In this document: positions 22,834 to 60,188 of the stretch, piece after piece
Layout of the letters: each line of letters starts with the position of its first letter
How positions within the stretch are numbered: the stretch's first letter is position 1
Assembly: GCA_009746045.1 (NCBI GenBank)
Contig: RPFO01000022.1
Location: 2,553,937 to 2,617,936 of the forward strand
Length of the DNA stretch: 64,000 nucleotides
Direction of reading: 5' to 3'
From: Mesostigma viride
Taxonomy: Eukaryota > Streptophyta > Mesostigmatophyceae > Mesostigmatales > Mesostigmataceae
The notes under the pieces: model-generated
Seen by the model: the letters and a program-made list of their open reading frames with translations, nothing else
Database searches by the model: none
What the model was told of the DNA's origin: nothing
Program-made: the position numbers and the translations under genes

Positions 22834-23407
22834 TTCGTTGGTCTAAACGTCTCTGCATGCTTGCTACTCCCTTTCTTGCTGGAAGACTTCTTTCTTGTTT
22901 CTTCCCCCTTGATGGAAGGCTGGATGGCTGTCACGGTGTGTCAGCCATCGATGGCCTTGGCTCAGGGGATATGCGCGGTTGTGTGCGCACACTATGCGCA
23001 GTATGCCCAGTGACTGCTAGGAATAAGGAAAGGTCAGGAATAAGCATAGTCTGCACACTTAAGGGTGTGTGAATGGGTCGAGTCATGAGCTACCCCAGTC
23101 TAGTTGAGCAGGGCTGTCGGTGATCTCTTCAATTTGGTGGTGGTGGTTTGTGGGGGTGTGGGGTGGGGGGTGGGGGGTGGGGGTGGGGTGGGGTGGGGGG
23201 GGGTCCTTCTCGGTATGCCTCCTTGGGTGTTTATGTATGTGGGTGGGCCTTGCAAAGCTATAGCCCCTTTTTTGCTGCCATGGTAGATCTGGGTGCCCAT
23301 GATGCTTGTAGCGTGCCACCACGCTGATATGCGCTGGCACACGTTGACGCGTGCTGTGATTCGAATGCCCGCCACGACGTTGATCACATGTGTGTGTGTA
23401 TCTTCAG
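22834..23407. other. Gene-less stretch with a G-run cluster
   Basis: Bases 23144-23210 consist of G-runs of 3-9 separated by single T or TG (for example GGGGTGGGGTGGGG), able to form several G-quadruplexes. A CATCGATGG palindrome-like word lies at 22947. Nothing coding is supported before the putative exon at 23408. Confidence 0.5.
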
Positions 23408-40853: not shown

Positions 40854-41754
40854 TTAGACAGCTTGCTGAGATGGGTCCATCAGAGACTGAAGAACCTTGT
40901 ATTGCACTGCTGCCTTCTGCACTAGCTTGGTCAAAGCATCAGCAGGATTGTCAACCCCAGGGATATGCTCAATATTGGCCAAGGAGGACAACTCCTTAAG
41001 AAGGAGATAATCCAAGTCCCTACTTCTGGCCATCTGCCTGTGCACAAACTGCACCATCCCCATGGAGTCTGTTTTTAGAAGAGTGGTAACCTGAAGTGGC
41101 CAAGGAGTGTTAGAAGTCATCTGATGAAGCAACTCCTTCAGATAAAGGCTTGTGTGAATGCCTTCACAAATAGCCCTGCATTCTGCCACATCACTGCTGA
41201 CAGCCACCCGTTTGTGCAGGCGACTAAACCAGCTCACCAAACTCCCCAGGCCTTCCTGTCTGAGCACAAAGAGCCCTGCAGCCCTGCCCCTGACCTTGGA
41301 GACCTGCCTGCTGTCCATTGAGCTATCCACATACAGCTCCATGCAAATGGGTTGTGATAAATCCACTGCAGACAGCAGAATGCCAGATGAAGCCCTGACC
41401 TGATCAGCCACCTTGGCAGACCCTAGCTCCACCAGCATGTCATCAGGCAACCTGGCTATGACCATAAGGTCTGGCCTGGAAATGCCTGCCACCCAAGCAA
41501 CCATGCCCCTGACCATAGGACACAGTGCCTGTGTGATGGTTGGAGGAAGCTTGCTAATGAGGGTCTCTTGATAATCATTGCCCCCCACCAGCAGCATACG
41601 CCACTCCCCCCCTTCTTCACCAGTGTGGCCTCCATGCCCACAAACAGCAGAGGCTCATTCTCCACCTGCCATTGCTCCCTACCCAGAGGAAACTTGGACT
41701 TAATGATGGAGATCAGCTCCTTAAGCCACGACGTGGGAGCTATCAGATGTAGGT
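40854..41754 (-). pseudogene. Copia-like pol, 3' part: end of RT plus RNase H
   Basis: Directly after the insertion the minus strand resumes at the residues after HGDD and continues LHLIAPTSWLKELISIIKSK and ENEPLLFVGMEATL. A run of seven G (plus-strand C-run at about 41606-41612) then shifts the frame by one base. The following 247-codon frame carries the Copia connection (ALCPMVRGMVAWVAGISRPD) and RNase H with its acidic residues in YVDSS, AECRAI, KTDSMG and VDNPADALTK. An eighth G would restore the frame, so this is either a recent mutation or a sequencing error. Confidence 0.8.
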
Positions 41755-41783
41755 GGGTGGTTTTACCGGATTAGGATACATTT
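41755..41783 (+). repeat. Left terminal inverted repeat, outer copy
   Basis: 29 bp, begins GGGTGGTTTTACCGG and ends GATACATTT. The exact reverse complement is at 60157-60185. A second TAGGATACATTTGATGCA follows at 41791. Confidence 0.95.
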
Positions 41784-42313
41784 TTTTGTCTAGGATACAT
41801 TTGATGCAGTGTGCAGTTTTCAGATGTGTTTGTGGGGGTTGATTGCGCCTAGCATGCATTTTATTGAAGCAATGAGTTTCCCAAGATATACATTATATAA
41901 ACTAAGACAATTGACCCATTAACGCAATGAGACAACATCAATGAGACAACATATGCCAATTGAAGGCTGCCCGCAACTTTATTCCAAGCTCATTATTATA
42001 TGATTCCAAGACCATAACTCTTCCAAGACCGTACATCTTCAAGATATAGCACTACAGACACCCACGCGGCTTCCTCGGTCATCACGCTCCTCCTCCAAGA
42101 CAACTCAACCTTACAGGACGCTGGGCCATCATACGTCCGGAATAATTGTGTCACTTATTACATAACCAAACTTTTTGAGGGATCGCCACGGTTGCATGGT
42201 TTCAACACATGCGCCCTGCACTCATGTGCATCAAAGGTGTTGCGTAGTGCCAACTCAGTGTCAAAGAACTGATTCAATAATATTTCCCGTATGGCCATGA
42301 AGGCCCACATGAG
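41784..42313. other. Left subterminal region, outer transposon
   Basis: Non-coding, with the second TAGGATACATTT word, direct CAATGAGACAACAT repeats (41924 and 41940) and ATTATATGATTCCAAGACC-like words. The same sequence is at 48963-49492 in the inner copy. No gene is supported. Confidence 0.55.
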
Positions 42314-42393
42314 TTAAACATGGCCGAGAGTGATTGCATCATCCTTCTTGGCGACATCGGTCTTGACGACGTCGATGGGGAAGACGGCAGCAC
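42314..42393 (-). CDS. Putative last exon of a minus-strand transposon gene, outer copy
   Basis: On the minus strand, the acceptor ACATGCAG precedes a block encoding AAVFPIDVVKTDVAKKDDAI then TLGHV and a stop at 42314. The composition is protein-like, unlike the repeat-derived frame upstream. The protein is not recognised. The large CAGCCACG array upstream would sit in an intron. Confidence 0.35.
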
Positions 42394-42591
42394 CTGCATG
42401 TGAACAAAAGAATCCATGAACTGTGGCATCCAAAGGCAACAACATATTAGCATCCCATTGAACACGCAGCCACGCTGACCCGGCCATCCAGCCGCCCACG
42501 CAGCCACAGAGCCAGCCAGCCACGCAGTGACGCACCCACCCAGCCACACATCCACGCATCCACGCACCCGGCACCCCACCCCCCCCCAGCC

Positions 42592-43890
42592 AGCCACGCA
42601 GCCACGCAGCCACGCAGCCACGCAGCAGCGCAGCCACGCAGCCACACAGCCACGCACCCTCCTTTCCAGCCACGCAGCCACGCAGCCACGCAGCCACGCA
42701 GCCACGCAGCCACGCAGCCACGCAGCCACGCAGCCACGCAGCCACGCAGCCACGCAGCCACGCAGCCACGCAGCCACGCAGCCACGCAGCCACGCAGCCA
42801 CGCAGCCACGCAGCCACGCAGCAGCGCAGCTACGCAGCCACACAGCCACGCACCCTCCTTTCCAGCCAAGCAGCCACGCAGCCACGCAGCCACGCAGCAG
42901 CGCAGCCACGCAGCCACACAGCCACGCACCCTCCTTTCCAGCCACGCAGCCACGCAGCCACGCAGCAGCGCAGCCACGCAGCCACACAGCCACGCACCCT
43001 CCTTTCCAGCCAAGCAGCCACGCAGCCACGCAGCCACACAGCCACGCAGCCACGCAGCCACGCAGCAGCGCAGCCACGCAGCCACACAGCCACGCAGCAG
43101 CGCAGCCACGCAGCCACGCAGCCACGCAGCCACGCAGCAGCGCAGCCACGCAGCAGCGCAGCCACGCAGCCACACAGCCACGCACCCTCCTTTCCAGCCA
43201 CGCAGCCACGCAGCCACGCAGCCACGCAGCCACGCAGCCACGCAGCCACGCAGCCACGCAGCAGCGCAGCCACGCAGCCACACAGCCACGCACCCTCCTT
43301 TCCAGCCAAGCAGCCACGCAGCCACGCAGCCACGCAGCCACGCAGCCACGCAGCAGCGCAGCCACGCAGCCACACAGCCACGCAGCCACGCAGCCACGCA
43401 GCCACGCAGCCACGCAGCCACGCAGCCACGCAGCCACGCAGCCATGCAGCCACGCAGCCACGCAGCAGCGCAGCCACGCAGCCACACAGCCACGCACCCT
43501 CCTTTCCAGCCACGCAGCCACGCAGCCACGCAGCCACGCAGCCACGCAGCAGCGCAGCCACGCAGCCACACAGCCACGCACCCTCCTTTCCAGCCAAGCA
43601 GCCACGCAGCCACGCAGCCACGCAGCAGCGCAGCCACGCAGCCACACAGCCACGCACCCTCCTTTCCAGCCAAGCAGCCACGCAGCCACGCAGCCACGCA
43701 GCCACGCAGCCACGCAGCCACGCAGCCACGCAGCCACGCAGCCACGCAGCCACGCAGCAGCGCAGCCACGCAGCCACACAGCCACGCACCCTCCTTTCCA
43801 GCCAAGCAGCCACGCAGCCACGCAGCAGCGCAGCCACGCAGCCACACAGCCACGCACCCTCCTTTCCAGCCAAGCAGCCACGCAGTCACA
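42592..43890. repeat. CAGCCACG-type array, outer copy, 1.3 kb
   Basis: Basic unit is 8 bp (GCAGCCAC) with GCAGCAGC variants, interrupted by a recurring CACCCTCCTTTCCAGCCA spacer that defines a higher-order unit of variable length. Open frames such as QPRSHAAT (plus) and AWLRGCVA (minus) exist because 24 bp is a multiple of both 8 and 3. I regard them as artefacts. Confidence 0.9.
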
Positions 43891-43961
43891 CAGTCAAATC
43901 CCCCCTACACCCCCCCCCCACACACACCCCCACCCCACCCACTCAACACTACACGAATGAC

Positions 43962-44097
43962 TCACAAAGAACTGCTGCACCACCGATGATCCCTGCGGGA
44001 ACTGCTCTGCTGCCGACGGTCCCTGCGAAAACTGCTGCAGTGCCGACAATGCCTGTGGAAACTGCGACATTGCCGACGCTGCCTGCGGGAACTGAAG

Positions 44098-44169
<72 letters not shown>

Positions 44170-44206
44170 AGTTGTTGCTGCAGTTGCTGCTGCAGTTGCT
44201 GCTGCA

Positions 44207-44245
<39 letters not shown>

Positions 44246-44593
44246 GCTGGACCACTTGTTTCTGCACCTCTTGACGCAGCTGCAAACCAAGCTCTTCAAC
44301 CTTCTTGCTTTGGTTCTCCATAGCTCGTTGCATCTCTCTCATCGTCTGTTCCACGCCCACCAGTACGGGGGTCGGCGGCGGCAGCGGCTGGGTACGCTCT
44401 GGCTGGGTGCGCTCTGGCTGCCGTGCAGGACCTTGCCACATCGGCCGGCGCATTGGTGGTTTGCACCGGCCAAAAAATCTACTTTCATGGCACCAGATTT
44501 CTTTCCTAGCACCCATTTCCTACAATCGTCCCCGGCATAACACAAATCAATCAATTCGTCCATGTCATCGCTTCGGCTATCAGCATCGGGCAT
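43962..44593 (-). CDS. Glutamine-rich coiled-coil protein gene, outer copy
   Basis: Two overlapping minus-strand frames. The upstream frame (start 44593) begins MPDADSRSDDMDELIDLCYA. The downstream frame (start 44516) begins MGARKEIWCHESRFFGRCKP, then a TQPLPPPTP linker, a helix VGVEQTMREMQRAMENQSKK-VEELGLQLRQEV and a glutamine run encoded by (CTG)n on the plus strand, ending near 43962. A frame change or small intron is needed to join them, in both transposon copies. A DNA-binding or scaffolding role is possible, but no domain is recognised. Confidence 0.45.
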
Positions 44594-44759
44594 AGTTCCC
44601 GTGGCTAGTGCCCATCATTCTTTCCACCTTGAGCGGGGCGAAGTCACGAATTCAAGCGCGAAGTGCATTTGAATCAAGCGGGAACTGGGTGACACTCCTT
44701 GAAGACGTGCAGCTCCAAGGCATGCAAATGATGCAATGTATGAAAGATACGATACGCAA

Positions 44760-45700
44760 AGTTCAGGTGTTCAGGTGAAGCCGTGAAGACGTGGTGAAGA
44801 CAGGTGAAGACGCGGTGAAGACGTGAAGACGTGAAGACGTGAAGACGTGAAGACGTGAAGACACGATACGGCAAGTTCAGGTGAAGTTCAGGTGTTCAGG
44901 TGAAGCCGTGAAGACGTGAAGACGTGAAGCCGTGAAGACGTGGTGAAGACAGGTGAAGACGCGGTGAAGACGTGAAGACGTGAAGACGTGAAGACGTGAA
45001 GACGTGAAGACACGATACGGCAAGTTCAGGTGAAGTTCAGGTGTTCAGGTGAAGCCGTGAAGACGTGAAGACGCGAAGACGTGAAGACGTGGTGAAGACA
45101 GGTGAAGACGCGGTGAAGACGTGAAGACGTGAAGACGTGAAGACGTGAAGACGTGAAGACACGATACGGCAAGTTCAGGTGAAGTTCAGGTGTTCAGGTG
45201 AAGCCGTGAAGCCGTGAAGACGTGAAGCCGTGAAGACGTGGTGAAGACAGGTGAAGACGCGGTGAAGACGTGAAGACGTGAAGACGTGAAGACGTGAAGA
45301 CGTGAAGACACGATACGGCAAGTTCAGGTGAAGTTCAGGTGTTCAGGTGAAGCCGTGAAGCCGTGAAGCCGTGAAGCCGTGAAGACGTGGTGAAGACAGG
45401 TGAAGACGCGGTGAAGACGTGAAGACGTGAAGACGTGAAGACGTGAAGACGTGAAGACACGATACGGCAAGTTCAGGTGAAGTTCAGGTGTTCAGGTGAA
45501 GCCGTGAAGACGTGAAGACGTGAAGCCGTGAAGACGTGGTGAAGACAGGTGAAGACGCGGTGAAGACGTGAAGACGTGAAGACGTGCATGCAAGGTATCA
45601 AAGATACGATACGCCGCAAGTTCAGGTGAAGTCGTGAAGACGTGAAGACGTGAAGACGTGAAGACGTGAAGACGTGAAGACGTGAAGACGTGAAGACCAG
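44760..45700. repeat. 149-bp higher-order array of GAAGACGT units, outer copy
   Basis: Five higher-order units, each ending CACGATACGGCAAG (ends at 44875, 45024, 45173, 45322, 45471), exactly 149 bp apart. Inside each, GTGAAGAC 8-mers vary (GTGAAGCC, GGTGAAGACAG, GCGGTGAAGAC). The TTCAGGTGAAGTTCAGGTGTT block marks the start of each unit. Confidence 0.92.
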
Positions 45701-45769
45701 GACTGTCACGTGAAGACTGGGACGTGAAGGCAAGTTGCAGCACTCGGCCGCTGCAGTCGCACGCAGGTA

Positions 45770-46100
45770 GAAACGAGTATTGCTGCTTGAATCTGTCAAG
45801 ACCCCATCGAATGTAAAACATGTTTTTCGTAAAGAAATCCGACTCGTGGGCGGGCTTTACATATTGCTTCTGTCCAAGCACTACCGGATGTAAAACAGTA
45901 TACTTCTTGAAGAAATAAGTTGGGGCTTTGTTGGGCGTCACATTTGACCGGTGGGCGGAGTTTCCTGCTTCTGTGAAGGCGCCATGGAATGTAGATCAGT
46001 AGATTTTCTAAAGAAATCTGAGTTGTGGGCGGGGCCTTTATTGCTTGTGTCCATCCACCACCGGATGTAGAACAGTAGACTTATTGAAGGTGAATCACGA
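45770..46100. repeat. Diverged short tandem repeats, possible promoter region, outer copy
   Basis: Four imperfect blocks beginning with GAATGTAAAACA / GGATGTAAAACAGTA / GAATGTAGATCAGTA / GGATGTAGAACAGTA, each (but the last) followed by AAAGAAAT-like and GTGGGCGG(G)GC words, spaced about 80-105 bp. They lie between the divergent minus- and plus-strand genes, so I infer a shared regulatory region with GC-box-like motifs. Confidence 0.45.
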
Positions 46101-46230
46101 TACAACAGCTGTAGTTGACAACATCATGACCGGCACATCTTTCCCCCACCGCTGCTCAACCCGGTCCCCCCCAAACTCCTCCACACTTGCCCACCTTTCC
46201 ACCCTCCTCCACGGCCCGTTGTGTTTGCAG

Positions 46231-46275
46231 GCGTTGGCACAAAGGGAGGAGGCCGTGCGAGCCGGGAAACTCACG
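46231..46275 (+). CDS. Captured exon of a CFAP299-like gene, outer copy
   Basis: 45-nt phase-0 exon flanked by acceptor TTGTGTTTGCAG and donor GTATGG, encoding ALAQREEAVRAGKLT. With the next exon it reads as a continuous piece of the conserved core of CFAP299 (cilia- and flagella-associated protein 299), whose family has an ALA-REE-SGKL-IFIRDRN-GQE pattern as I recall it. The rest of that protein is not in the transposon, so this is a captured gene fragment with its introns. Confidence 0.6.
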
Positions 46276-46964
46276 GTATGGTTTGATTTCTAGTTTTGTA
46301 TTAGGACCCTAGGGTAGCTATGTTATATAGGCATGTCTGACAGCATAGCTCACCATTTCATTACCATGGGATGCTGAGCATACCATTTCCAGAGAGGTAA
46401 GTCAGTCACTCTTCGCAGTTGACAAGTCAGAGAAAGCAATCAAGTGCAGCGTTCACAACTCTTGCCGCTCGTAACCTTTTGTCTGCCCGGTTTGGCAGCT
46501 CCCTGTCTTTGCTTTCTCTCGTATTTCTTTCTTTTGTCTCTTTTCTACATCTTTCTTTGCTAATTCTTGAATATATGATGCTATTGTAGCATCCTTCTAG
46601 CGCGGATCGCTCTTAATATCCTTCTCGCGCACGTTTCCTCGCTTTTTCTCATGTAAGAGCGTCTTCCCTGCCCATGCAGCGTGTACCTGGTGTGTGTGGC
46701 TCTGCCTTGCCAATCACAACTGACCGACATGCTGGTCAGGCACTGCAGGTCGTTGCCCTTGCGTGTGTGAACCTGCTGTTTTGGCTGTTCCCATGGCCGC
46801 TGCGTGTGTCCGTGAATGATACCATGGGAGGGAGACTTCTCCCATGGGTCCCCTTCGCTGACACTCGTGATGTAGGTTCGCGTCGACTTGTTTCTCTCAC
46901 TGTGCCCATATTGGCCTCGCACGGCTTTGTCTCTCATTCCTTGTTTGCATGCGGCGGCGTGTAG

Positions 46965-47006
46965 ACCATCATCTTCATCCGAGACCGCAACAGCAAGGGC
47001 CAGGAG
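46965..47006 (+). CDS. Captured second exon of a CFAP299-like gene, outer copy
   Basis: 42-nt phase-0 exon, acceptor GCGGCGTGTAG and strong donor GTGAGT, encoding TIIFIRDRNSKGQE. In CFAP299 the next residues would be around SGYIDYAHR; I do not find that exon downstream. The intron between the two exons (46276-46964) is retained, pointing to DNA-level capture and not to retrocopying. Confidence 0.65.
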
Positions 47007-47159
47007 GTGAGTAATTGCTGAGGGCATGGCTCCTATCCCCTGATGAGTCTAGCGCCATGTACCACCCTCTATGCCTGCATATAGGTGACGCATTGAAAAT
47101 GCAAGCATCTTACTAGAAGTAGCACGGGCCTCCGAGGTGAGATTTTGCGCAGGCCTCAT

Positions 47160-48175
47160 GATCCCAATGGACCTGCGAAGCGCATGGCGCGCATGGGCGG
47201 CCGGCCGGCGCAGCTGGCATGCGGCGGGGCGGGGCTGTCGACGGGCGGCGGGGCAGGGCCGTCGGCGCACGGGGGCCAGCGGCGCTGCCGGTGCGCGCGG
47301 GCGGCGGGCCGGCGCACCTGGCATGCGGCGGGGCAGGGCTGTCGACGGGCGGCGGGGCGGGGCAGTCGACGGGCGGCGGGGCAGGGCCAGCGGCGCTGCC
47401 GGCGCGCGTGGGCGGCGGGCCGGCGCAGCTGGCATGCGGCGGGGCGGGGCTGTCGACGGGCGGCGGGGCAGGGCTGTCGACGGGCGGCGGGGCAGGGCCG
47501 TCGGCGCGCGGGGGGCCAGCGGCGCTGCCGGCGCGCGCGGGCGGCGGGCCGGCGCACCTGGCATGCGGTGGGTCGGGGCTGTCGACGGGCGGCGGGGCGG
47601 GGCAGTCGACGGGCGGCGGGGCAGGGCCGTCAGCGCGCGGGGGGCCAGCGGCGCTGCCGGCGCGCGTGGGCGGCGGGCCGGCGCAGCTGGCATGCGGCGG
47701 GGCGGGGCAGTCGACGGGCGGCGGGGCGGGGCAGCCGGTGCGCGGCGGGGCGGCGCCGTCGGCGGGCGGCGAGGTGGCGCAGCCAGCGCGCAGCGAGGTG
47801 GCAGCGGCGGCGCAGCCTGCATGCGGCGGGGCAGGGCTGTCGACGGGCGGCGGGGCGGGGCAGTCGACGGGCGGCGGGGCAGGGCCGTCGGCGCGCGGGG
47901 GCCAGCGGCGCTGCCGGCGCGCATGGGCGGCGGGCCGGCGCAGCTGGCATGCGGCGGGGCGGGGCTGTCAACGGGCGGCGGGGCAGGGCCGTCGGCACGC
48001 GGGGGGCCAACGGCGCTGCCGGCGCGCGTGGGCGGCGGGCCGGCGCAGCTGGCATGCGGCGGGGCGGGGCAGCCTGTCGACGGGCTACGGGGCGGGGCAG
48101 CCGGCGCGCGGCGGGCCGGCGGCGCAGCCGGCGGGCAGCGGAGCGGCGGAGCGGCACAGCCGGTGCCTGAAAAAC
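47160..48175. repeat. GC-rich minisatellite, outer copy
   Basis: Eight higher-order units marked by CTGGCATGCGGCGGGG or GCATGCGG, spaced about 105-130 bp, built from CGACGGGCGGCGGGGC subunits. It is open in several frames on both strands (GGGAGPSARGG, RRAAGRGSRR). It lies between the captured exons and the plus-strand gene and could be intronic or encode a low-complexity leader. Confidence 0.9.
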
Positions 48176-48186
48176 GCGGTCGCTCA

Positions 48187-48933
48187 ATGAAGGTGCACCA
48201 CGCCGTCTTCTTCCAGGTACAGGGCAACACAGAGACCTGGTTGTCCTACCGGACCACGGAGTCCCAAAAGACGCCGTGGCAGCCCGCGGGGACTCGACAG
48301 GAAGGCGCGCCACGGTGCGGGAAGGCGATGACACAGCCATACAGGTTTGATGCGGAGGGGCGGCCGCTGTTTGGCGTCCGACTTGTGGATCCAGACCGCA
48401 TTCCGATGTTGCAGGACACCCCAGCCTTCGCACCATTGAACATGGAGTTTCTGGGGAAGGAGCTGGAGTCGATCAAAACAAGGGTCGAGAAGTTGCCCCA
48501 TGGCATCTGGCAGTGGTACTTTCCGCCCGACACCATCAAGCCAAACAAGGCCTTTTTTCGCAAGTCAAGTCCCACATGCCCCTGAGGAGGTGCCTGAGGA
48601 GTGGCGCCCTTTGCCGTGGCCATCTCGCGCGGACATCTCCGCCCTGCGTGAGCACGATGCAGCGCCTGAACCACCACCGACGCAAGAAGAGCACTTCATG
48701 GCGTTGGTCGACGCAGAGGCGGTGCGCGTCACCCCGCTGGTAGACCGAGTTCGTCATGATGGCCACACACAGCAGGAATGGGCGGCAGAAGACAGGGCCA
48801 TGGCAGCCAAGGTCGCTTACTTGAAGCGCATGCAAGGCGTTGAGAAAGGCTCCGCTGTTCTATACTGGCACCCTTCAGCTGGTATTCTCTGCAACTCGAA
48901 GCTCACGTGGACTCCAGTCCTCGTTGGCATCAT
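48187..48933 (+). pseudogene. Plus-strand transposon gene, outer copy, 5' part before the self-insertion
   Basis: Same two frames as 55264-56005 in the inner copy (frame change at the same place). The coding sequence is cut after LTWTPVLVGI by the left end of the inner transposon. Confidence 0.8.
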
Positions 48934-48962
48934 GGGTGGTTTTACCGGATTAGGATACATTT
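48934..48962 (+). repeat. Left terminal inverted repeat, inner copy
   Basis: Same 29 bp as the outer copy, directly after the target triplet CAT. Confidence 0.95.
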
Positions 48963-49492
48963 TTTTGTCTAGGATACATTTGATGCACTGTGCAGTTTTC
49001 AGATGTGTTTGTGGGGGTTGATTGCGCCTAGCATGCATTTTATTGAAGCAATGAGTTTCCCAAGATATACATTATATAAACTAAGACAATTGACCCATTA
49101 ACGCAATGAGACAACATCAATGAGACAACATATGCCAATTGAAGGCTGCCCGCAACTTTATTCCAAGTTCATTATTATATGATTCCAAGACCATAACTCT
49201 TCCAAGACCGTACATCTTCAAGATATAGCACTACAGACACCCACGCGGCTTCCGCGGTCATCACGCTCCTCCTCCAAGACAACTCAACCTTACAGGACGT
49301 TGGGCCATCATACGTCCGGAATAATTGTGTCACTTATTACATAACCAAACTTTTTGAGGGATCGCCATGGTTGCATGGTTTCAACACATGCGCCCTGCAC
49401 TCATGTGCATCAAAGGTGTTGCGTAGTGCCAACTCAGTGTCAAAGAACTGATTCAATAATATTTCCCGTATGGCCATGAAGGCCCACATGAG

Positions 49493-49572
49493 TTAAACAT
49501 GGCCGAGAGTGATTGCATCATCCTTCTTGGCGACATCGGTCTTGACGACGTCGATGGGGAAGACGGCAGCAC
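49493..49572 (-). CDS. Putative last exon of a minus-strand transposon gene, inner copy
   Basis: Same block as in the outer copy at 42314-42393, with the same ACATGCAG acceptor and stop. It may belong to the same transcript as the glutamine-rich gene at 50729-51378, about 1.2 kb upstream. Confidence 0.35.
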
Positions 49573-49769
49573 CTGCATGTGAACAAAAGAATCCATGAAC
49601 TGTGGCATCCAAAGGCAACAACATATTAGCATCCCATTGAACACGAAGCCACGCTGACCCGGCCATCCAGCCGCCCACGCAGCCACAGAGCCAGCCAGCC
49701 ACGCAGTGACGCACCCACCCAGCCACACATCCACGCATCCACGCACCCGGCACCCCCCCCCCCCCCAGC

Positions 49770-50665
49770 CAGCCACGCAGCCACGCAGCCACGCAGCCAC
49801 GCAGCAGCGCAGCCACGCAGCCACACAGCCACGCACCCTCCTTTCCAGCCACGCAGCCACGCAGCCACGCAGCCACGCAGCCACGCAGCCACGCAGCCAC
49901 GCAGCAGCGCAGCTACACGCAGCCACACAGCCACGCACCCTCCTTTCCAGCCAAGCAGCCACGCAGCCACGCAGCCACGCAGCCACGCAGCAGCGCAGCC
50001 ACGCAGCCACACAGCCACGCACCCTCCTTTCCAGCCACGCAGCCACGCAGCCACGCAGCAGCGCAGCCACGCAGCCACACAGCCACGCACCCTCCTTTCC
50101 AGCCAAGCAGCCACGCAGCCACGCAGCCACGCAGCCACGCAGCAGCGCAGCCACGCAGCCACACAGCCACGCAGCCACGCAGCCACGCAGCAGCGCAGCC
50201 ACGCAGCCACGCAGCCACGCAGCAGCGCAGCCACGCAGCCACACAGCCACGCACCCTCCTTTCCAGCCACGCAGCCACGCAGCCACGCAGCCACGCAGCC
50301 ACGCAGCCACGCAGCCACGCAGCCACGCAGCCACGCAGCCACGCAGCAGCGCAGCCACGCAGCCACACAGCCACGCACCCTCCTTTCCAGCCAAGCAGCC
50401 ACGCAGCCACGCAGCAGCGCAGCCACGCAGCCACACAGCCACGCACCCTCCTTTCCAGCCACGCAGCCACGCAGCAGCGCAGCCACGCAGCCACGCAGCA
50501 GCGCAGCCACGCAGCCACACAGCCACGCAGCCACGCAGCCACGCAGCAGCGCAGCCACGCAGCCACGCAGCCACGCAGCCACGCAGCCACGCAGCAGCGC
50601 AGCCACGCAGCCACACAGCCACGCACCCTCCTTTCCAGCCAAGCAGCCACGCAGTCACACAGTCA
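49770..50665. repeat. CAGCCACG-type array, inner copy, 0.9 kb
   Basis: Same unit and spacer as in the outer copy but about 400 bp shorter, and with a small CA insertion (CAGCTACACGCAGCC, 49910). Array length is the main difference between the sibling transposons here. Confidence 0.9.
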
Positions 50666-50728
50666 AACCCCCCTACACCCCCCCCCCACACACACCCCAC
50701 CCCACCCACTCAACACTACACGAATGAC

Positions 50729-50864
50729 TCACAAAGAACTGCTGCACCACCGATGATCCCTGCGGGAACTGCTCTGCTGCCGACGGTCCCTGCGAAAACT
50801 GCTGCAGTGCCGACAATGCCTGTGGAAACTGCGACATTGCCGACGCTGCCTGCGGGAACTGAAG

Positions 50865-50942
<78 letters not shown>

Positions 50943-50991
50943 AGTTGTTGCTGCAGTTGCTGCTGCAGTTGCTGCTGCAGTTGCTGCTGCA

Positions 50992-51030
<39 letters not shown>

Positions 51031-51378
51031 GCTGGACCACTTGTTTCTGCACCTCTTGACGCAGCTGCAAACCAAGCTCTTCAACCTTCTTGCTTTGGTT
51101 CTCCATAGCTCGTTGCATCTCTCTCATCGTCTGTTCCACGCCCACCAGTACGGGGGTCGGCGGCGGCAGCGGCTGGGTACGCTCTGGCTGGGTGCGCTCT
51201 GGCTGCCGTGCAGGACCTTGCCACATCGGCCGGCGCATTGGTGGTTTGCACCGGCCAAAAAATCTACTTTCATGGCACCAGATTTCTTTCCTAGCACCCA
51301 TTTTCTACAATCGTCCCCGGCATAACACAAATCAATCAATTCGTCCATGTCATCGCTTCGGCTATCAGCATCGGGCAT
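50729..51378 (-). CDS. Glutamine-rich coiled-coil protein gene, inner copy
   Basis: Same two frames as the outer copy (starts 51378 and 51301). The glutamine tract is a few codons longer (plus-strand CTG run 50866-51025). One base differs just before the frame change (TTTTCTAC here, TTTCCTAC in the outer copy) and does not change the reading frame. It lies 60-110 bp from the 149-bp array and is transcribed away from the plus-strand gene. Confidence 0.45.
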
Positions 51379-51539
51379 AGTTCCCGTGGCTAGTGCCCAT
51401 CATTCTTTCCACCTTGAGCGGGGCGAAGTCACGAATTCAAGCGCGAAGTGCATTTGAATCAAGCGGGAACTGGGTGACACTGCTTGAAGACGTGCAGCTC
51501 CAAGGCATGCAAATGATGCAATGTATGAAAGATACGATA

Positions 51540-52770
51540 CGCAAAGTTCAGGTGTTCAGGTGAAGCCGTGAAGACGTGGTGAAGACAGGTGAAGACGCGG
51601 TGAAGACGTGAAGACGTGAAGACGTGAAGACGTGAAGACGTGAAGACACGATACGGCAAGTTCAGGTGAAGTTCAGGTGTTCAGGTGAAGCCGTGAAGAC
51701 GTGAAGCCGTGAAGCCGTGAAGACGTGGTGAAGACAGGTGAAGACGCGGTGAAGACGTGAAGACGTGAAGACGTGAAGACGTGAAGACGTGAAGACACGA
51801 TACGGCAAGTTCAGGTGAAGTTCAGGTGTTCAGGTGAAGCCGTGAAGACGTGAAGCCGTGAGGCCGTGAAGACGTGGTGAAGACAGGTGAAGACGCGGTG
51901 AAGACGTGAAGACGTGAAGACGTGAAGACGTGAAGACGTGAAGACACGATACGGCAAGTTCAGGTGAAGTTCAGGTGTTCAGGTGAAGCCGTGAAGACGT
52001 GAAGCCGTGAAGCCGTGAAGACGTGGTGAAGACAGGTGAAGACGCGGTGAAGACGTGAAGACGTGAAGACGTGAAGACGTGAAGACGTGAAGACACGATA
52101 CGGCAAGTTCAGGTGAAGTTCAGGTGTTCAGGTGAAGCCGTGAAGACGTGAAGCCGTGAAGCCGTGAAGACGTGGTGAAGACAGGTGAAGACGCGGTGAA
52201 GACGTGAAGACGTGAAGACGTGAAGACGTGAAGACACGATACGGCAAGTTCAGGTGAAGTTCAGGTGTTCAGGTGAAGCCGTGAAGACGTGAAGACGCGA
52301 AGACGTGAAGACGTGGTGAAGACAGGTGAAGACGCGGTGAAGACGTGAAGACGTGAAGACGTGAAGACGTGAAGACGTGAAGACACGATACGGCAAGTTC
52401 AGGTGAAGTTCAGGTGTTCAGGTGAAGCCGTGAAGACGTGAAGCCGTGAAGCCGTGAAGACGTGGTGAAGACAGGTGAAGACGCGGTGAAGACGTGAAGA
52501 CGTGAAGACGTGAAGACGTGAAGACACGATACGGCAAGTTCAGGTGAAGTTCAGGTGTTCAGGTGAAGCCGTGAAGACGTGAAGACGCGAAGACGTGAAG
52601 ACGTGGTGAAGACAGGTGAAGACGCGGTGAAGACGTGAAGACGTGAAGACGTGCATGCAAGGTATCAAAGATACGATACGCCGCAAGTTCAGGTGAAGTC
52701 GTGAAGACGTGAAGACGTGAAGACGTGAAGACGTGAAGACGTGAAGACGTGAAGACGTGAAGACCAGGAC
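51540..52770. repeat. 149/141-bp higher-order array, inner copy
   Basis: Seven unit ends of CACGATACGGCAAG at 51660, 51809, 51958, 52107, 52248, 52397 and 52538. Spacing is 149 except two units of 141, which lack one 8-bp subunit. The sibling has five units. Confidence 0.92.
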
Positions 52771-52836
52771 TGACACGTGAAGACTGGGACGTGAAGGCAA
52801 GTTGCAGCACTCGGCCGCTGCAGTCGCACGCAGGTA

Positions 52837-53167
52837 GAAACGAGTATTGCTGCTTGAATCTGTCAAGACCCCATCGAATGTAAAACAGGTTTTTCGTAAA
52901 GAAATCCGATTTGTGGGCGGGCTTTACATATTGCTTCTGTCCAAGCACTACCGGATGTAAAACAGTATACTTCTTGAAGAAATAAGTTGGGGCTTTGTTG
53001 GGCGTCACATTTGACCGGTGGGCGGAGTTTCCTGCTTCTGTGAAGGCGCCATCGAATGTAGATCAGTAGATTTTCTAAAGAAATCTGAGTTGTGGGCGGG
53101 GCCTTTATTGCTTGTGTCCATCCACCACCGGATGTAGAACAGTAGACTTATTGAAGGTGAATCACGA
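52837..53167. repeat. Diverged short tandem repeats, possible promoter region, inner copy
   Basis: Same four blocks as in the outer copy with a few substitutions (for example AAACATG to AAACAGG). They lie between the 149-bp array and the captured exons. Confidence 0.45.
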
Positions 53168-53297
53168 TACAACAGCTGTAGTTGACAACATCATGACCGG
53201 CACATCTTTCCCCCACCGCTGCTCAACCCGGTCCCCCCCAAACTCCTCCACACTTGCCCACCTTTCCACCCTCCTCCACGGCCCGTTGTGTTTGCAG

Positions 53298-53342
53298 GCG
53301 TCGGCACAAAGGGAGGAGGCCGTGCGAGCCGGGAAACTCACG
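53298..53342 (+). CDS. Captured exon of a CFAP299-like gene, inner copy
   Basis: Same exon as 46231-46275 with TTG changed to TCG (Leu to Ser in the second codon). Splice sites are unchanged. Confidence 0.6.
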
Positions 53343-54031
53343 GTATGGTTTGATTTCTAGTTTTGTATTAGGACCCTAGGGTAGCTATGTTATATAGGCA
53401 TGTCTGACAGCATAGCTCACCATTTCATTACCATGGGATGCTGAGCATACCATTTCCAGAGAGGTAAGTCAGTCACTCTTCGCAGTTGACAAGTCAGAGA
53501 AAGCAATCAAGTGCAGCGTTCACAACTCTTGCCGCTCGTAACCTTTTGTCTGCCCTGTTTGGCAGCTCCCTGTCTTTGCTTTCTCTCGTATTTCTTTCTT
53601 TTGTCTCTTTTCTACATCTTTCTTTGCTAATTCTTGAATATATGATGCTATTGTAGCATCCTTCTAGCGCGGATCGCTCTTAATATCCTTCTCGCGCACG
53701 TTTCCTCGCTTTTTCTCATGTAAGAGCGTCTTCCCTGCCCATGCAGCGTGTACCTGGTGTGTGTGGCTCTGCCTTGCCAATCACAACTGACCGACATGCT
53801 GGTCAGGCACTGCAGGTCGTTGCCCTTGCGTGTGTGAACCTGCTGTTTTGGCTGTTCCCATGGCCGCTGCGTGTGTCCGTGAATGATACCATGGGAGGGA
53901 GACTTCTCCCATGGGTCCCCTTCGCTGACACTCGTGATGTAGGTTCGCGTCGACTTGTTTCTCTCACTGTGCCCATATTGGCCTCGCACGGCTTTGTCTC
54001 TCATTCCTTGTTTGCATGCGGCGGCGTGTAG

Positions 54032-54073
54032 ACCATCATCTTCATCCGAGACCGCAACAGCAAGGGCCAGGAG
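54032..54073 (+). CDS. Captured second exon of a CFAP299-like gene, inner copy
   Basis: Identical to 46965-47006, with the same GT/AG borders. The intron separating it from the first exon is also kept. Confidence 0.65.
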
Positions 54074-54239
54074 GTGAGTAATTGCTGAGGGCATGGCTCC
54101 TATCCCTTGATGAGTCTAGCGCCATGTACCACCCTCTATGCCTGCATATAGGTGACGCATTGAAAATGCAAGCATCTTACTAGAAGTAGCACGGGCCTCC
54201 GAGGTGAGATTCTGCGCAGGCCTCATGATCCCAATGGAC

Positions 54240-55255
54240 CTGCGAAGCGCATGGCGCGCATGGGCGGCCGGCCGGCGCAGCTGGCATGCGGCGGGGCGGG
54301 GCTGTCGACGGGCGGCGGGGCAGGGCCGTCGGCGCGCGGGGGGCCAGCGGCGCTGCCGGTGCGCGCGGGCGGCGGGCCGGCGCACCTGGCATGCGGCGGG
54401 GCAGGGCTGTCGACGGGCGGCGGGGCGGGGCAGTCGACGGGCGGCGGGGCAGGGCCAGCGGCGCTGCCGGCGCGCGTGGGCAGCGGGCCGGCGCAGCTGG
54501 CATGCGGCGGGGCGGGGCTGTCGACGGGCGTCGGGGCAGGGCTGTTGACGGGCGGCGGGGCAGGGCCGTCGGCGCGCGGGGGGCCAGCGGCGCTGCCGGC
54601 GCGCGCGGGCGGCGGGCCGGCGCACCTGGCATGCGGTGGGTCGGGGCTGTCGACGGGCGGCGGGGCGGGGCAGTCGACGGGCGGCGGGGCAGGGCCGTCA
54701 GCGCGCGGGGGGCCAGCGGCGCTGCCGGCGCGCGTGGGCGGCGGGCCGGCGCAGCTGGCATGCGGCGGGGCGGGGCAGTCGACAGGCGGCGGGGCGGGGC
54801 AGCCGGTGCGCGGCGGGGCGGCGCCGTCGGCGGGCGGCGAGGTGGCGCAGCCAGCGCGCAGCGAGGTGGCAGCGGCGGCGCAGCCTGCATGCGGCGGGGC
54901 AGGGCTGTCGACGGGCGGCGGGGCGGGGCAGTCGACGGGCGGCGGGGCAGGGCCGTCGGCGCGCGGGGGGCCAGCGGCGCTGCCGGCGCGCATGGGCGGC
55001 GGGCCGGCGCAGCTGGCATGCGGCGGGGCGGGGCTGTCAACGGGCGGCGGGGCAGGGCCGTCGGCGCGCGGGGGGCCAACGGCGCTGCCGGCGCGCGTGG
55101 GCGGCGGGCCGGCGCAGCTGGCATGCGGCGGGGCGGGGCAGCCTGTCGACGGGCTACGGGGCGGGGCAGCCGGCGCGCGGCGGGCCGGCGGCGCAGCCGG
55201 CGGGCGGCGGAGCGGCGGAGCGGCGGAGCGGCACAGCCGGTGCCTGAAAAACGCG
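54240..55255. repeat. GC-rich minisatellite, inner copy
   Basis: Same array as in the outer copy with scattered substitutions (for example a GGGCGTCGGGG variant at 54526) and an added GAGCGGCG near 55215. Length is nearly conserved, unlike the 149-bp and CAGCCACG arrays. Confidence 0.9.
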
Positions 55256-55263
55256 GTCGCTCA

Positions 55264-55662
55264 ATGAAGGTGCACCACGCCGTCTTCTTCCAGGTACAGG
55301 GCAACACAGAGACCTGGTTGTCCTACCGGACCACGGAGTCCCAAAAGACGCCGTGGCAGCCCGCGGGGACTCGACAGGAAGGCGCGCCACGGTGCGGGAA
55401 GGCGATGACACAGCCATACAGGTTTGATGCGGAGGGGCGGCCGCTGTTTGGCGTCCGACTTGTGGATCCAGACCGCATTCCGATGTTGCAGGACACCCCA
55501 GCCTTCGCACCATTGAACATGGAGTTTCTGGGGAAGGAGCTGGAGTCGATCAAAACAAGGGTCGAGAAGTTGCCCCATGGCATCTGGCAGTGGTACTTTC
55601 CGCCCGACACCATCAAGCCAAACAAGGCCTTTTTTCGCAAGTCAAGTCCCACATGCCCCTGA
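55264..55662 (+). CDS. Plus-strand transposon gene, first frame, inner copy
   Basis: The frame from ATG 55264 reads MKVHHAVFFQVQGNTETWLS, RFDAEGRPLFGVRLVDPDRI, MLQDTPAFAPLNMEFLGKEL and WQWYFPPDTIKPNKAFFRK, then stops at 55660. Its composition and codon use look like real protein. A splice acceptor alternative exists (CTTCTTCCAG before GTACAGGGC at 55293). The protein is unrecognised. The following gene part (55577-56794) is in the +1 frame, and the overlap includes a run of six T at 55628-55633. Confidence 0.55.
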   Translation: MKVHHAVFFQVQGNTETWLSYRTTESQKTPWQPAGTRQEGAPRCGKAMTQPYRFDAEGRPLFGVRLVDPDRIPMLQDTPAFAPLNMEFLGKELESIKTRVEKLPHGIWQWYFPPDTIKPNKAFFRKSSPTCP

Positions 55663-56794
55663 GGAGGTGCCTGAGGAGTGGCGCCCTTTGCCGTGGCCAT
55701 CTCGCGCGGACATCTCCGCCCTGCGTGAGCACGATGCAGCGCCTGAACCACCACCGACGCAAGAAGAGCACTTCATGGCGTTGGTCGACGCAGAGGCGGT
55801 GCGCGTCACCCCGCTGGTAGACCGAGTTCGTCATGATGGCCACACACAGCAGGAATGGGCGGCAGAAGACAGGGCCATGGCAGCCAAGGTCGCTTACTTG
55901 AAGCGCATGCAAGGCGTTGAGAAAGGCTCCGCTGTTCTATACTGGCACCCTTCAGCTGGTATTCTCTGCAACTCGAAGCTCACGTGGACTCCAGTCCTCG
56001 TTGGCATCATCAAGGAGGTGGTTGCGAAGGAGGATGGCGGCCAACCTTCTATTGAGCTCTTTGTATACCGCGCTAAGCATTTGCATGACACGTGGCACCC
56101 GTGGAATACAGACATTGCGCAATGGCCCCATCCGCCAACCACTGCGGCGCACACGGTGATCATCACCGCCTCAGACCTCGTCTTGACACAAGTGGTGGGC
56201 AAGCGAGGTCAGCCGCCCCATGGAGTCTCCTTGGGTGCGAACGAAAAGCTCACCAAGGAGTGCCTAAAGGCGCTGAAGGAGGTGCCCTATGACGCGGAAC
56301 ACCCGGTCGTGAAGTGGCAAGATGCTGAATGCTCGAAGGGCATCGTCGGCATGGCGAAGGCATGCTGGGAAGGCGTAACGCTGCAGGTCAAGAGTGGCAG
56401 CCGCAACCTCGTAGGGCAAGTCGTGTGTCATTGGGCGTCGGAGCGTGTGACATCCGCGGACGGTCGCACCGAAAGCCGGGACGGCAGGTACCATGGTCGT
56501 GTCGCTGTTGTCGACACGCAAAACGACATGGTAGCCATGTACTGGGGTGCCCGTTGGGAGGAGGACGCGGTTTCTTGCGTGCCTCTCCACGAGCTGGAGG
56601 CACAGATCTGCGGGTGCCCCGGTGTGGTCGTCCCTGCGTTGCAAGCGCCGGATATCACCCTGGCCGAGGCTCGATTGCGCGAGATGGTTCCACCCAGCGA
56701 CGTTGTGGCGGAGAACAACAACGCAGGCGCCTCCCGGCGTCGGAAGCGAGCGCTCATCCTTGCCGATGACGATGACGACGACGACGACTGCTGA
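55577..56794 (+). CDS. Plus-strand transposon gene, main frame, unrecognised acidic-tailed protein
   Basis: A 405-codon frame. The convincing part begins around SQVPHAPEEVPEEWRPLPWP (after about residue 20), so the first ATG may not be the real start. Later blocks include LYWHPSAGILCNSKLTWTPV, IELFVYRAKHLHDTWHPW, GQVVCHWASERVTS, RYHGRVAVVDTQNDMVAMYW and GARWEEDAVSCVPLHELEAQ. It ends with a basic cluster SRRRKRAL (likely nuclear localisation) and a run of eight aspartates. The RYHGRV...VAMYW...W...VPLHELE pattern looks like a small beta-barrel (Tudor/BAH-like), which is a guess. No DDE transposase signature is seen. Together with 55264-55662 it probably forms one protein via an intron, +1 frameshift or an ancestral indel. 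Confidence 0.6.
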   Translation: MASGSGTFRPTPSSQTRPFFASQVPHAPEEVPEEWRPLPWPSRADISALREHDAAPEPPPTQEEHFMALVDAEAVRVTPLVDRVRHDGHTQQEWAAEDRAMAAKVAYLKRMQGVEKGSAVLYWHPSAGILCNSKLTWTPVLVGIIKEVVAKEDGGQPSIELFVYRAKHLHDTWHPWNTDIAQWPHPPTTAAHTVIITASDLVLTQVVGKRGQPPHGVSLGANEKLTKECLKALKEVPYDAEHPVVKWQDAECSKGIVGMAKACWEGVTLQVKSGSRNLVGQVVCHWASERVTSADGRTESRDGRYHGRVAVVDTQNDMVAMYWGARWEEDAVSCVPLHELEAQICGCPGVVVPALQAPDITLAEARLREMVPPSDVVAENNNAGASRRRKRALILADDDDDDDDC

Positions 56795-58067
56795 AGCGCA
56801 AGCAGCGTTGTTGTCATTGAGCTGCTCATGTGCTGCTGCTGCTGCTGTGCTGCCATGCTATTGCTGCTGCATTGCTGCCGTACTGCTGCTGTGCTATTGT
56901 GCTGATGTGTTGCTGCATTGCTGCCGTGCCGCTGATGTATTGCTGTCGTGCTGCTGTGTTGATGCACTGCTGCATTGCTGCCGTGCTGCTGAGCTAGTAC
57001 TGCCTATTAGTGAATTTCCTATCAATGGACTATAGTCCACTGATAGGAAATTCAGGAATCGGCATACTAAGTTGCTGCTGCGCTGACTTGTGCTCCTGCT
57101 ATGCGGCCGTGTTGATGTGCTACAGTTGTGCTGCTGCTGTGCTACGGTCATGCTGCTGCTGTGTTGCTGGGCTGATGTGTTGTTGCATTGATGTAGTGGC
57201 TATTGTTCCGCTACTACAATTTGCTACTGATGCCGCTGCTGGTGCTTTTTTGCATGTCAGTGCCCGCTATGTTCACACCACTGTTGCCGCGGTTGGTATC
57301 GCGTGATTTCCACCGGTTGTGCGTTGACATGTGTTACTCATGCATTTGCCCCTATATTTGGTAGCACGCGGTTTCGCGTTAGTTAGGTGCAGACAGCTGC
57401 ATGTAGACAAACATCTTGTTTAAGTCGGTCAATTAACTGTTCTTGACGCATCATGGTCCAAGTCGACCGACCTGTAGGGACCAGTAGAGCAATTGTCTAG
57501 GAGAAAGAGCGTGATCGCTGCAGAAGCCGCGTGGCAGCCGTGGCTGTACCTGTAGTACGACCTGCATATATATGGATACTGTATTTGGATACTGGGTTGT
57601 TTATCAATTCTGGTTTTAATTTATTTAGTGTACCTGGTGTTGGCATGCCAACTCAGTGCTAAACTACTTTATGCACAATGATGCAACTTGATGCTATAGT
57701 GACGTGCCACGATGTAACTTTATTAACTTCACCATTAGTCATGGGGTCAATAGGATTGCTCATTATGCCATGTTAACATGAACCATGGGTTACGTAATAG
57801 TGAAAACAGTAATCATGATGCTCCACTTGAAGTCTCCAACATGGTCATGTTTGGAATTTTATTGATCATATTCACAATATATGAAAAGAGACAACAAACG
57901 TGGAAGCATGGCACGCCGAGGCCGATAATATATGTGTGAAATATGAAAAGAGACAACATCTTTGGCAAGCATGATCATATTATGCTTGCCAAACATATTA
58001 ATGATATCGACCATGTCCAGAAACCATGTTTGCCAATGGTGCATTTAGGATACATTTGAAGCCGTGC
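56795..58067. other. Right non-coding part, inner transposon
   Basis: CTG/TGC-rich irregular repeats (56820-57000) are followed by a 42-bp near-perfect palindrome (57012-57053, centre GGACTATAGTCC), further CTG-rich sequence to 57170, and AT-rich sequence to the right end. No gene is supported. The same block is at 58886-60156 in the outer copy, palindrome at 59101-59142. Confidence 0.6.
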
Positions 58068-58096
58068 AAATGTATCCTAATCCGGTAAAACCACCC
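58068..58096 (-). repeat. Right terminal inverted repeat, inner copy
   Basis: Perfect reverse complement of 48934-48962, followed by the repeated target triplet CAT. Confidence 0.95.
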
Positions 58097-58099
58097 CAT

Positions 58100-58885
58100 C
58101 AAGGAGGTGGTTGCGAAGGAGGATGGCGGCCAACCTTCTATTGAGCTCTTTGTATACCGCGCTAAGCATTTGCATGACACGTGGCACCCGTGGAATACAG
58201 ACATTGCGCAATGGCCCCATCCGCCAACCACTGCGGCGCACACGGTGATCATCACCGCCTCAGACCTCGTCTTGACACAAGTGGTGGGCAAGCGAGGTCA
58301 GCCGCCCCATGGAGTCTCCTTGGGTGCGAACAAAAAGCTCACCAAGGAGTGCCTAAAGGCGCTGAAGGAGGTGCCCTATGACGCGGAACACCCGGTCGTG
58401 AAGTGGCAAGATGCTGAATGCTCAAAGGGCATCGTCGGCATGGCGAAGGCATGCTGGGAAGGCGTAACGCTGCAGGTCAAGAGTGGCAGCCGCAACCTCG
58501 TAGGGCAAGTCGTGTGTCATTGGGCGTCGGAGCGTGTGACATCCGCGGACGGTCGCACCGAAAGCCGGGACGGCAGGTACCATGGTCGTGTCGCTGTTGT
58601 CGACACGCAAAACGACATGGTAGCCATGTACTGGGGTGCCCGTTGGGAGGAGGACGCGGTTTCTTGCGTGCCTCTCCACGAGCTGGAGGCACAGATCTGC
58701 GGGTGCCCCGGTGTGGTCGTCCCTGCGTTGCAAGCGCCGGATATCACCCTGGCCGAGGCTCGATTGCGCGAGATGGTTCCACCCAGCGACGTTGTGGCGG
58801 AGAACAACAACGCAGGCGCCTCCCGGCGTCGGAAGCGAGCGCTCATCCTTGCCGATGACGATGACGACGACGACGACTGCTGAAG
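58100..58885 (+). pseudogene. Plus-strand transposon gene, outer copy, 3' part after the self-insertion
   Basis: Resumes right after the second CAT with codons for KEVVAKEDGGQPSIELFVYR and continues to the acidic tail and stop at 58881-58883. It differs from the inner copy by single changes such as GCGAACAAAAAG for GCGAACGAAAAG (58330). No start of its own is plausible. Confidence 0.8.
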
Positions 58886-60156
58886 CGCAAGCAGCGTTGT
58901 TGTCATTGAGCTGCTCATGTGCTGCTGCTGCTGCTGTGCTGCCATGCTACTGCTGCTGCATTGCTGCCGTGCTGCTGCTGTGCTATTGTGCTGATGTGTT
59001 GCTGCATTGCTGCCGTGCCGCTGATGTATTGCTGTCGTGCTGCTGTGTTGATGCACTGCTGCATTGCTGCCGTGCTGCTGAGCTAGTACTGCCTATTAGT
59101 GAATTTCCTATCAATGGACTATAGTCCACTGATAGGAAATTCAGGAATCGGCATACTAAGTTGCTGCTGCGCTGACTTGTGCTCCTGCTATGCGGCCGTG
59201 TTGATGTGCTACAGTTGTGCTGCTGCTGTGCTACGGTCATGCTGCTGCTGTGTTGCTGGGCTGATGTGTTGTTGCATTGATGTAGTGGCTATTGTTCCGC
59301 TACTACAATTTGCTACTGATGCCGCTGCTGGTGCTTTTTTGCATGTCAGTGCCCGCTATGTTCACACCACTGTTGCCGCGGTTGGTATCGCGTGATTTCC
59401 ACCGGTTGTGCGTTGACATGTGTTACTCATGCATTTCCCCCTATATTTGGTAGCACGCGGTTTCGCGTTAGTTAGGTGCAGACAGCTGCATGTAGACAAA
59501 CATCTTGTTTAAGTCGGTCAATTAACTGTTCTTGACGCATCATGGTCCAAGTCGACCGACCTGTAGGGACCAGTAGAGCAATTGTCTAGGAGAAAGAGCG
59601 TGATCGCTGCAGAAGCCGCGTGGCAGCCGTGGCTGCACCTGTAGTACGACCTGCATATATATGGATACTGTATTTGGATACTGGGTTGTTTATCAATTCT
59701 GGTTTTAATTTATTTAGTGTACCTGGTGTTGGCATGCCAACTCAGTGCTAAACTACTTTATGCACAATGATGCAACTTGATGCTATAGTGACGTGCCACG
59801 ATGTAACTTTATTAACTTCACCATTAGTCATGGGGTCAATAGGATTGCTCATTATGCCATGTTAACATGAACCATGGGTTACGTAATAGTGAAAACAGTA
59901 ATCATGATGCTCCACTTGAAGTCTCCAACATGGTCATGTTTGGAATTTTATTGATCATACTTACAATATATGAAAAGAGACAACAAACGTGGAAGCATGG
60001 CACGCCGAGGCCGATAATATATGTGTGAAATATGAAAAGAGACAACATCTTTGGCAAGCATGATCATATCATGCTTGCCAAACATATTAATGATATCGAC
60101 CATGTCCAGAAACCATGTTTGCCAATGGTGCATTTAGGATACATTTGAAGCCGTGC

Positions 60157-60185
60157 AAATGTATCCTAATCCGGTAAAACCACCC
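60157..60185 (-). repeat. Right terminal inverted repeat, outer copy
   Basis: Perfect reverse complement of 41755-41783. Just inside it, TTTAGGATACATTTG (60132-60146) and its inverted counterpart form a stem-loop around GAAGCCGTG. Confidence 0.95.
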
Positions 60186-60188
60186 GGT

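Follow-up and report, generated by a model that had tools for sequence, protein, structure and literature searches.

A nested pair of DNA transposons occupies positions 41755 to 60185 of a 64,000-nucleotide stretch of the Mesostigma viride genome (contig RPFO01000022.1, forward-strand positions 2,553,937 to 2,617,936; hereafter the window, whose own numbering is used throughout), one copy of an element with terminal inverted repeats (TIRs) lying inside another copy of the same family. It is very likely that these elements belong to a TIR transposon family of M. viride in which the window copies are non-autonomous and are moved in trans by a transposase encoded in longer copies elsewhere in the genome, the candidate being a protein with the domain DUF7869 (PF25273). 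We regard DUF7869 as a probable transposase mainly because two families with different ends share this protein together with a 3-bp target-site duplication.

A preliminary description of the region had recognized a TIR transposon lodged in another member of its family, and the ends, duplications and borders that it gave were all found again. The nested structure consists of the following parts:

41752-41754: GGT target-site duplication to the left of the outer copy, an exact triplet
41755-41783, plus strand: 29-bp terminal inverted repeat, left end of the outer copy
41755-48933, plus strand: left part of the outer element, ending with the CAT target triplet
48931-48933: CAT duplication to the left of the inner copy
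48934-58096, plus strand: inner element, 9,163 bp
48934-48962, plus strand: 29-bp terminal inverted repeat, left end of the inner copy
58068-58096, minus strand: 29-bp terminal inverted repeat, right end of the inner copy
58097-58099: CAT duplication to the right of the inner copy
58097-60185, plus strand: right part of the outer element, including the second CAT
60157-60185, minus strand: 29-bp terminal inverted repeat, right end of the outer copy
60186-60188: GGT duplication to the right of the outer copy
60189-62772, minus strand: copia-like Pol into which the outer element is inserted (RVT_2 match at E 2.3e-5, below the curated cut-off)

The 15-mer GGGTGGTTTTACCGG is found four times in the window (at 41755, 48934, 58082 and 60171), and the full 29-bp repeat, said in the preliminary description to be identical on both copies, likewise has four occurrences with zero mismatches, against a mean of 0.00 in 100 shuffles. 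The 3-bp duplications are clean around both insertions, GGT/GGT for the outer and CAT/CAT for the inner copy. When 200 bp are joined across the inner empty site, they match position 6978 of the inner copy exactly, as expected from the earlier claim that the uninterrupted sequence is preserved there. The open reading frame (ORF) of the inner copy reads LVGIIKEV and that of the outer copy reads LVGI and then enters the inner element, which confirms that the plus-strand gene of the outer copy is cut between LVGI and IKEV. With the inner copy excluded, the outer element (41755-60185) measures 9,265 bp, and the lengths of the two copies differ through the length of their tandem arrays. On the outside, joining the flanks of the outer copy (400 bp) leaves one of three frames open throughout; the RVT_2 match stops about 50 bp before the outer border, at profile position 153 of 244, and the minus-strand frame continues at 41754 and below. 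Because the outer copy sits in a copia-like Pol, as indicated by the RVT_2 match near the border and the open joined frame, three layers are nested here: copia, outer and inner.

The window elements are part of a larger family, referred to below as family (a), since the exact 15-mer end occurs 494 times in the 439.9-Mb genome (241 forward, 253 reverse), with 0 and 1 occurrences of the reversed control. The first 100 of these ends yielded 40 end pairs, including ten fetched copies and the two window copies, 20 rows being left out because they had no partner at element distance. Exact 3-bp duplications flank 36 of the 40 pairs, other genomic copies thus sharing the same borders, and comprise 23 different triplets; with mismatched (unrelated) ends as control, triplets matched in 48 of 1,560 comparisons. 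The outer positions of the triplets are slightly biased towards T..A (0.44 with both strands counted), and TTA or TAA accounts for seven of the 36. Inverted ends with duplications of fixed length at many loci, together with empty sites, place the family among the class II (TIR) DNA transposons. No match to the exact 21-bp end was found in viral contigs or prokaryote genomes.

Ten further copies, chosen mostly for long span, were fetched and fall into two types: six resemble the window copies (several of them with other insertions) and four (C643, C557:300486, C121 and C426) are long-type copies of 10.8-12.4 kb with two long genes each. The plus-strand gene of the long type begins MDEEWDVPDLVDS and contains DUF7869 (E 1.3e-16; 61.2 bits against a curated cut-off of 26), with E-values of 1e-15 to 1e-16 across the long type and a second family, family (c), described below. 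In C121 a single frame of 1,722 amino acids (aa) runs through the G+C-rich repeat into the region of the 405-aa ORF of the window; ten listed loci, C121 among them, have open frames of 1,729 or 1,730 aa, C121 being the one that was read through. The minus-strand gene encodes 748-929 aa and is unbroken in all four long-type copies (for instance L017:1010-3253 on the minus strand, and also in L019, L021 and L023), so that each of the four fetched copies with the DUF7869 core also has this gene intact. In the window type, that is, both window copies and six of the ten fetched ones, the core is missing and only a 58-aa start of the minus-strand gene is left. Because its ends are the same as those of the long type, but the core is absent and the minus-strand gene is truncated, the window type is an internally deleted, non-autonomous derivative that multiplied. 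Inside the window copies the following features were located:

55577-56794, plus strand: 405-aa ORF of the inner copy, C-terminal part of the family's candidate transposase
48500-48933, plus strand: the same ORF in the outer copy, cut after LVGI by the inner insertion, resuming at 58100 and ending at 58883
51205-51378, minus strand: 58-aa remnant of the minus-strand accessory gene, inner copy (the gene of 748-929 aa in the four long-type copies)
44420-44593, minus strand: 58-aa remnant of the same gene, outer copy
49675-50625: 8-bp tandem array, inner copy (outer counterpart 42496-43856)
51560-52751: 149-bp tandem array, inner copy (outer counterpart 44775-45684)
54253-55233: G+C-rich 24/105/111/129-bp tandem array, inner copy (outer counterpart 47186-48160)
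58045-58080: subterminal inverted pair of the TAGGATACATTT motif, right end of the inner copy

A Pfam search of the genome for DUF7869, in which 150 of 275 candidates were scored, placed all 150 above the cut-off, and no match was found in any of 14 control genomes. The best 30 of these loci all belong to family (a), are 98.5-100% identical and in 23 cases are unbroken over the 620-aa N-terminal part, and the scores and profile ranges of the others point to about four further groups. About three of them (b, d and e), told apart by identical scores and profile ranges alone, have open frames of about 585 to 1,500 aa. Another, family (c), has different ends and was read at two loci; alignment of its protein with that of the long type gives 35% identity across 414 aa and 28% across 322 aa, and the protein is without the repeat linker and matches DUF7869 at 53.9 bits. 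Downstream, in another frame, lies an ORF that can be aligned to the final part of the window ORF (29% over 130 aa) and gives a Tudor-type match below cut-off (E 4.8e-4). The ends of family (c) start GAGGGGATTC / GAGGGGATTCATARG (GAGGGG), and the genome contains 276 exact 22-mers of this end and none of the reversed control. From about 40 simple end pairs recognized by eye in the first 100 rows, 20 were examined, most of them taken as they came in the list and two (C1389 and C1391) included for their DUF7869 matches, while the cluster at C2:4785849 was left out; exact 3-bp duplications were present in all 20, and mismatched ends agreed in four of 380 comparisons. For copy A of this family a left end further out was found, with the matching duplication CGG. 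Three acidic stretches, DKxD, LQLDGGSENRN and GHTHxDxDQKFG, are conserved between families (a) and (c), and these parts of the core presumably resemble the DDD/E triads of other transposases.

From these comparisons we postulate a candidate transposase composed of the N-terminal DUF7869 core, a repeat-coded linker (the array corresponding to the G+C-rich one is an in-frame linker in the long-type copy C121) and the C-terminal region that the window copies retain, with D380, D475 and D514/D516 (numbering of the L017 protein) as candidate acidic residues of the core. The long-type protein would bind at the 29-bp ends and at the subterminal TAGGATACATTT motifs, candidate binding sites that also occur as two direct copies at the left end of the inner copy (48951 and 48970), and would cut out the element at both ends, presumably by cut-and-paste rather than copy-out. 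The ends would then be joined to staggered target cuts 3 bp apart, with little sequence preference, and gap repair would make the duplication; the chemistry of catalysis may be RNase H-like, of the DDD/E kind. More tentatively, and with somewhat less than even confidence, DUF7869 could be the catalytic domain of an unnamed superfamily of eukaryotic cut-and-paste transposases with unselective 3-bp duplications and a Tudor-like C-terminal reader, represented in Mesostigma by several families of which at least one has been active very recently.

Several observations weigh against a DUF7869 transposase. The N- and C-terminal parts of the protein lie in different frames in three of the four long-type copies, the D380/D475/D514/D516 set is read from two families only, no credible relative of the core was found in the PDB by sequence, and no published function of DUF7869 was found in the literature searched, which lay outside subscription journals and in which the name DUF7869 does not occur. 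Among the 20 family (c) intervals, 17 are without a listed DUF7869 match, the list covering 150 of the 275 candidates, and three have one (C1:13649417, C1389:31857 and C1391:4487242). A listed match falls within eight of the 40 family (a) intervals (C121, C136, C196, C347, C426, C557:300486, C643 and C799), and the 3-bp duplication is present in five of these eight versus 31 of the 32 others, which together leaves four of the 40 end pairs without it. The flanks of C121, in which the one long frame was read, and of C347 and C799 share no such duplication; recombination between copies or chimeric contigs may account for this, and our confidence in the proposal was lowered slightly because three of the eight DUF7869-containing intervals are affected. 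The same intervals, the Pfam annotation of DUF7869 as a domain of unknown function and the equally unbroken minus-strand gene in all four long-type copies would suit an arrangement in which DUF7869 is a passenger and the cutting is done by the minus-strand gene product or by an unseen host protein. We consider this improbable, given that both the DUF7869 protein and the 3-bp duplication are retained in family (c), whose ends differ and whose core is 35% identical, that the three conserved stretches look like a metal-binding acidic core, and that nothing beyond a weak PHD-like match (E 0.056, below cut-off) and a long poly-Q stretch was detected in the minus-strand gene. Separately, the lone PDB match by sequence, a phosphate transporter (E 0.61 and 0.079), was rejected as not credible.

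With DUF7869 kept as the probable transposase, it may still be asked whether the family is a member of a named superfamily with 3-bp duplications (EnSpm/CACTA, Harbinger, Zator or Academ) that is too diverged for Pfam, or one already named in Repbase. Such duplications are typical of canonical Harbinger, EnSpm and Zator, and Repbase lay outside the comparison; nevertheless, the ends are GGGTGG and GAGGGG rather than CAC..GTG, the duplications extend well beyond TTA/TAA, and DUF7869 is the sole Pfam match above cut-off in the long-type protein, so that we find a named superfamily rather unlikely. Academ elements have an Academ-type transposase and duplications of 3-4 bp. EnSpm/CACTA elements are like the Mesostigma family in having subterminal repeats. 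Pfam holds a profile of the IS5-like DDE transposase, and the Pfam scans of the long-type and family (c) proteins gave no match to an IS5-like, a CACTA-type or an ISAzo13-like transposase, the coverage of Zator by Pfam being uncertain.

The PIF/Harbinger elements MtPH-A6-4 of Medicago, as described in PMC2213677, have 3-bp duplications, non-autonomous deletion derivatives, internal tandem arrays of varying copy number and nested insertions in common with the Mesostigma family, but duplicate TTA/TAA and have an IS5-like transposase, in contrast to 23 triplets and a DUF7869 candidate here. For canonical Harbinger and EnSpm elements, 3-bp duplications are given as typical in PMC12730594; EnSpm/CACTA elements share these and a large size with the families studied here (PMC4938662, PMC12730594), whereas their ends are CACTA or CAC..GTG instead of GGGTGG/GAGGGG. 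Zator also makes 3-bp duplications, and its transposases are reported to resemble ISAzo13 (PMC10045372). According to PMC12730594, KDZ elements (Zisupton, Kyakuja) make duplications of 8 bp or 7 bp, unlike the 3 bp in 36 of 40 pairs here, and Plavaka has TGT..ACA or CATCA..TGATG termini, from which the ends of the Mesostigma families differ; KDZ and Plavaka transposases likewise gave no match in the Pfam scans. The long-type core is a member of PF25273 (E 1e-16), here found within two TIR families with 3-bp duplications.

The relation of the two window copies to each other and to other loci bears on how the nesting arose. The alignment proposed in the preliminary description gave 26 differences in 5,719 positions outside the tandem arrays (0.45%) and 36 in 3,118 within them, besides changes in array length. 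Over four single-copy pieces the copies differ at 28 of 4,251 positions, which rules out the inner copy as a daughter of the outer; the nearest of the compared copies to the inner one is the locus C446:3874951 (19 differences in 4,217), and therefore the inner copy came from another source copy. Two other loci are 0.2 differences per 1,000 aligned bases (about 1 in 4,250) away from the outer copy and 0.0 from each other, and they are flanked by TTT and TAA duplications where the outer copy has GGT; therefore the outer lineage moved very recently, and the recent activity suspected from the outset is well supported. In the four-piece comparison, C1_559, C643, C557_300, C121 and C426 are without one or two pieces and so rest on fewer bases, and in C557_154 one segment is present twice, so that its pieces may derive from either. 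The region C557:1539910-1569390 (L025-L027) has 29.5 kb between family ends and contains two occurrences of the same internal segment, each at about 98.9% identity with the window copy. Beyond the preliminary description, both window copies are transposase-deleted, the plus-strand gene is the tail of a candidate transposase, and the inner copy does not descend from the outer.

Two similar 9-kb copies lying 7 kb apart make a hard assembly case, and the genome project (PMC6947507), which gives 48.6 Gb at 113-fold, reports a PacBio subread N50 of 11.2 kb, below the 18.4 kb of the structure. Even so, an assembly duplication or chimera is extremely unlikely, because a pure duplicate would not show the distances observed between inner copy, outer copy and other loci, and the borders are exact, with end and 3-bp duplication, as in 34 of 38 other end pairs. 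Another explanation of the nesting would be that the element targets itself by preferential insertion, for which one could cite the self-nested case in the window and a nested-looking cluster of family (c) at C2:4785849-4805511, where one element starts within the array of a second that has the opposite orientation. Yet with about 247 copies making up 0.52% of the genome, about 1.3 self-nestings are expected at random, and the window case is the sole self-nesting seen by eye among the first 100 of the 494 ends. Self-targeting is therefore very unlikely and need not be assumed, and the nesting itself is ordinary.

As for the 405-aa ORF of the inner copy, protein searches matched two proteins, both from Mesostigma; one is EukProt jgi/Mesvir1/21703, matched at 99% over 60% of its length. 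The search of this ORF among longer proteins and that of the minus-strand ORF gave no matches, and no transposase emerged when the inner copy was scanned against Pfam in all six frames (E up to 1); the two matches obtained, Unc5 (E 0.73) and TFIIA (E 0.0046), were set aside, the latter as a poly-Q artefact. The predicted fold of the ORF was unusable, with a mean pLDDT (predicted local distance difference test) of 32.8. Near its start the C-terminal ORF of the window copies differs in frame from the long-type copies, in which this region forms one frame. No relative of the 405-aa ORF was found in viral contigs, and phages, prokaryote genomes and viral contigs likewise gave none for the DUF7869 core, the contig searches being able to detect close relatives only; three viral-contig matches to the pattern GHTH-x-D-x-D-x-x-F were judged from their ORFs to be due to chance. 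Relatives of the DUF7869 protein outside Mesostigma are known through the existence of the Pfam family alone. In the right part of the element, strong palindromes are present in both copies at 56995-57070 and 57950-58005 (hairpin z-scores -10.3 and -5.3).

Elsewhere in the window, positions 1-38 kb are a mosaic of repeats, some more than 90% identical. A short tandem repeat of about 2.1 kb, open in several frames (AIPRST / YPPLHS / VERGIA), lies at 20722-22846, and repeated ORF fragments lie at 1109-1897 and 15592-16155, with no Pfam match where scanned (1109-1894). A reverse transcriptase fragment lies at 38604-39194 (RVT_1, E 3e-11).

Among the papers listed from the literature on Mesostigma transposable elements outside subscription journals, none shows the element in its title or the opening of its abstract, and the portions consulted of two Mesostigma genome papers (one of them PMC6947507) describe repeats in general terms only. 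With the family described here, DUF7869, a domain without an assigned function, gains a concrete and testable role as a probable transposase, and a possible active system is offered by this unicellular streptophyte, whose genome has near-identical copies in which the genes are unbroken. If DUF7869 is a transposase wherever it is found, proteins listed only as DUF7869 could be re-annotated.

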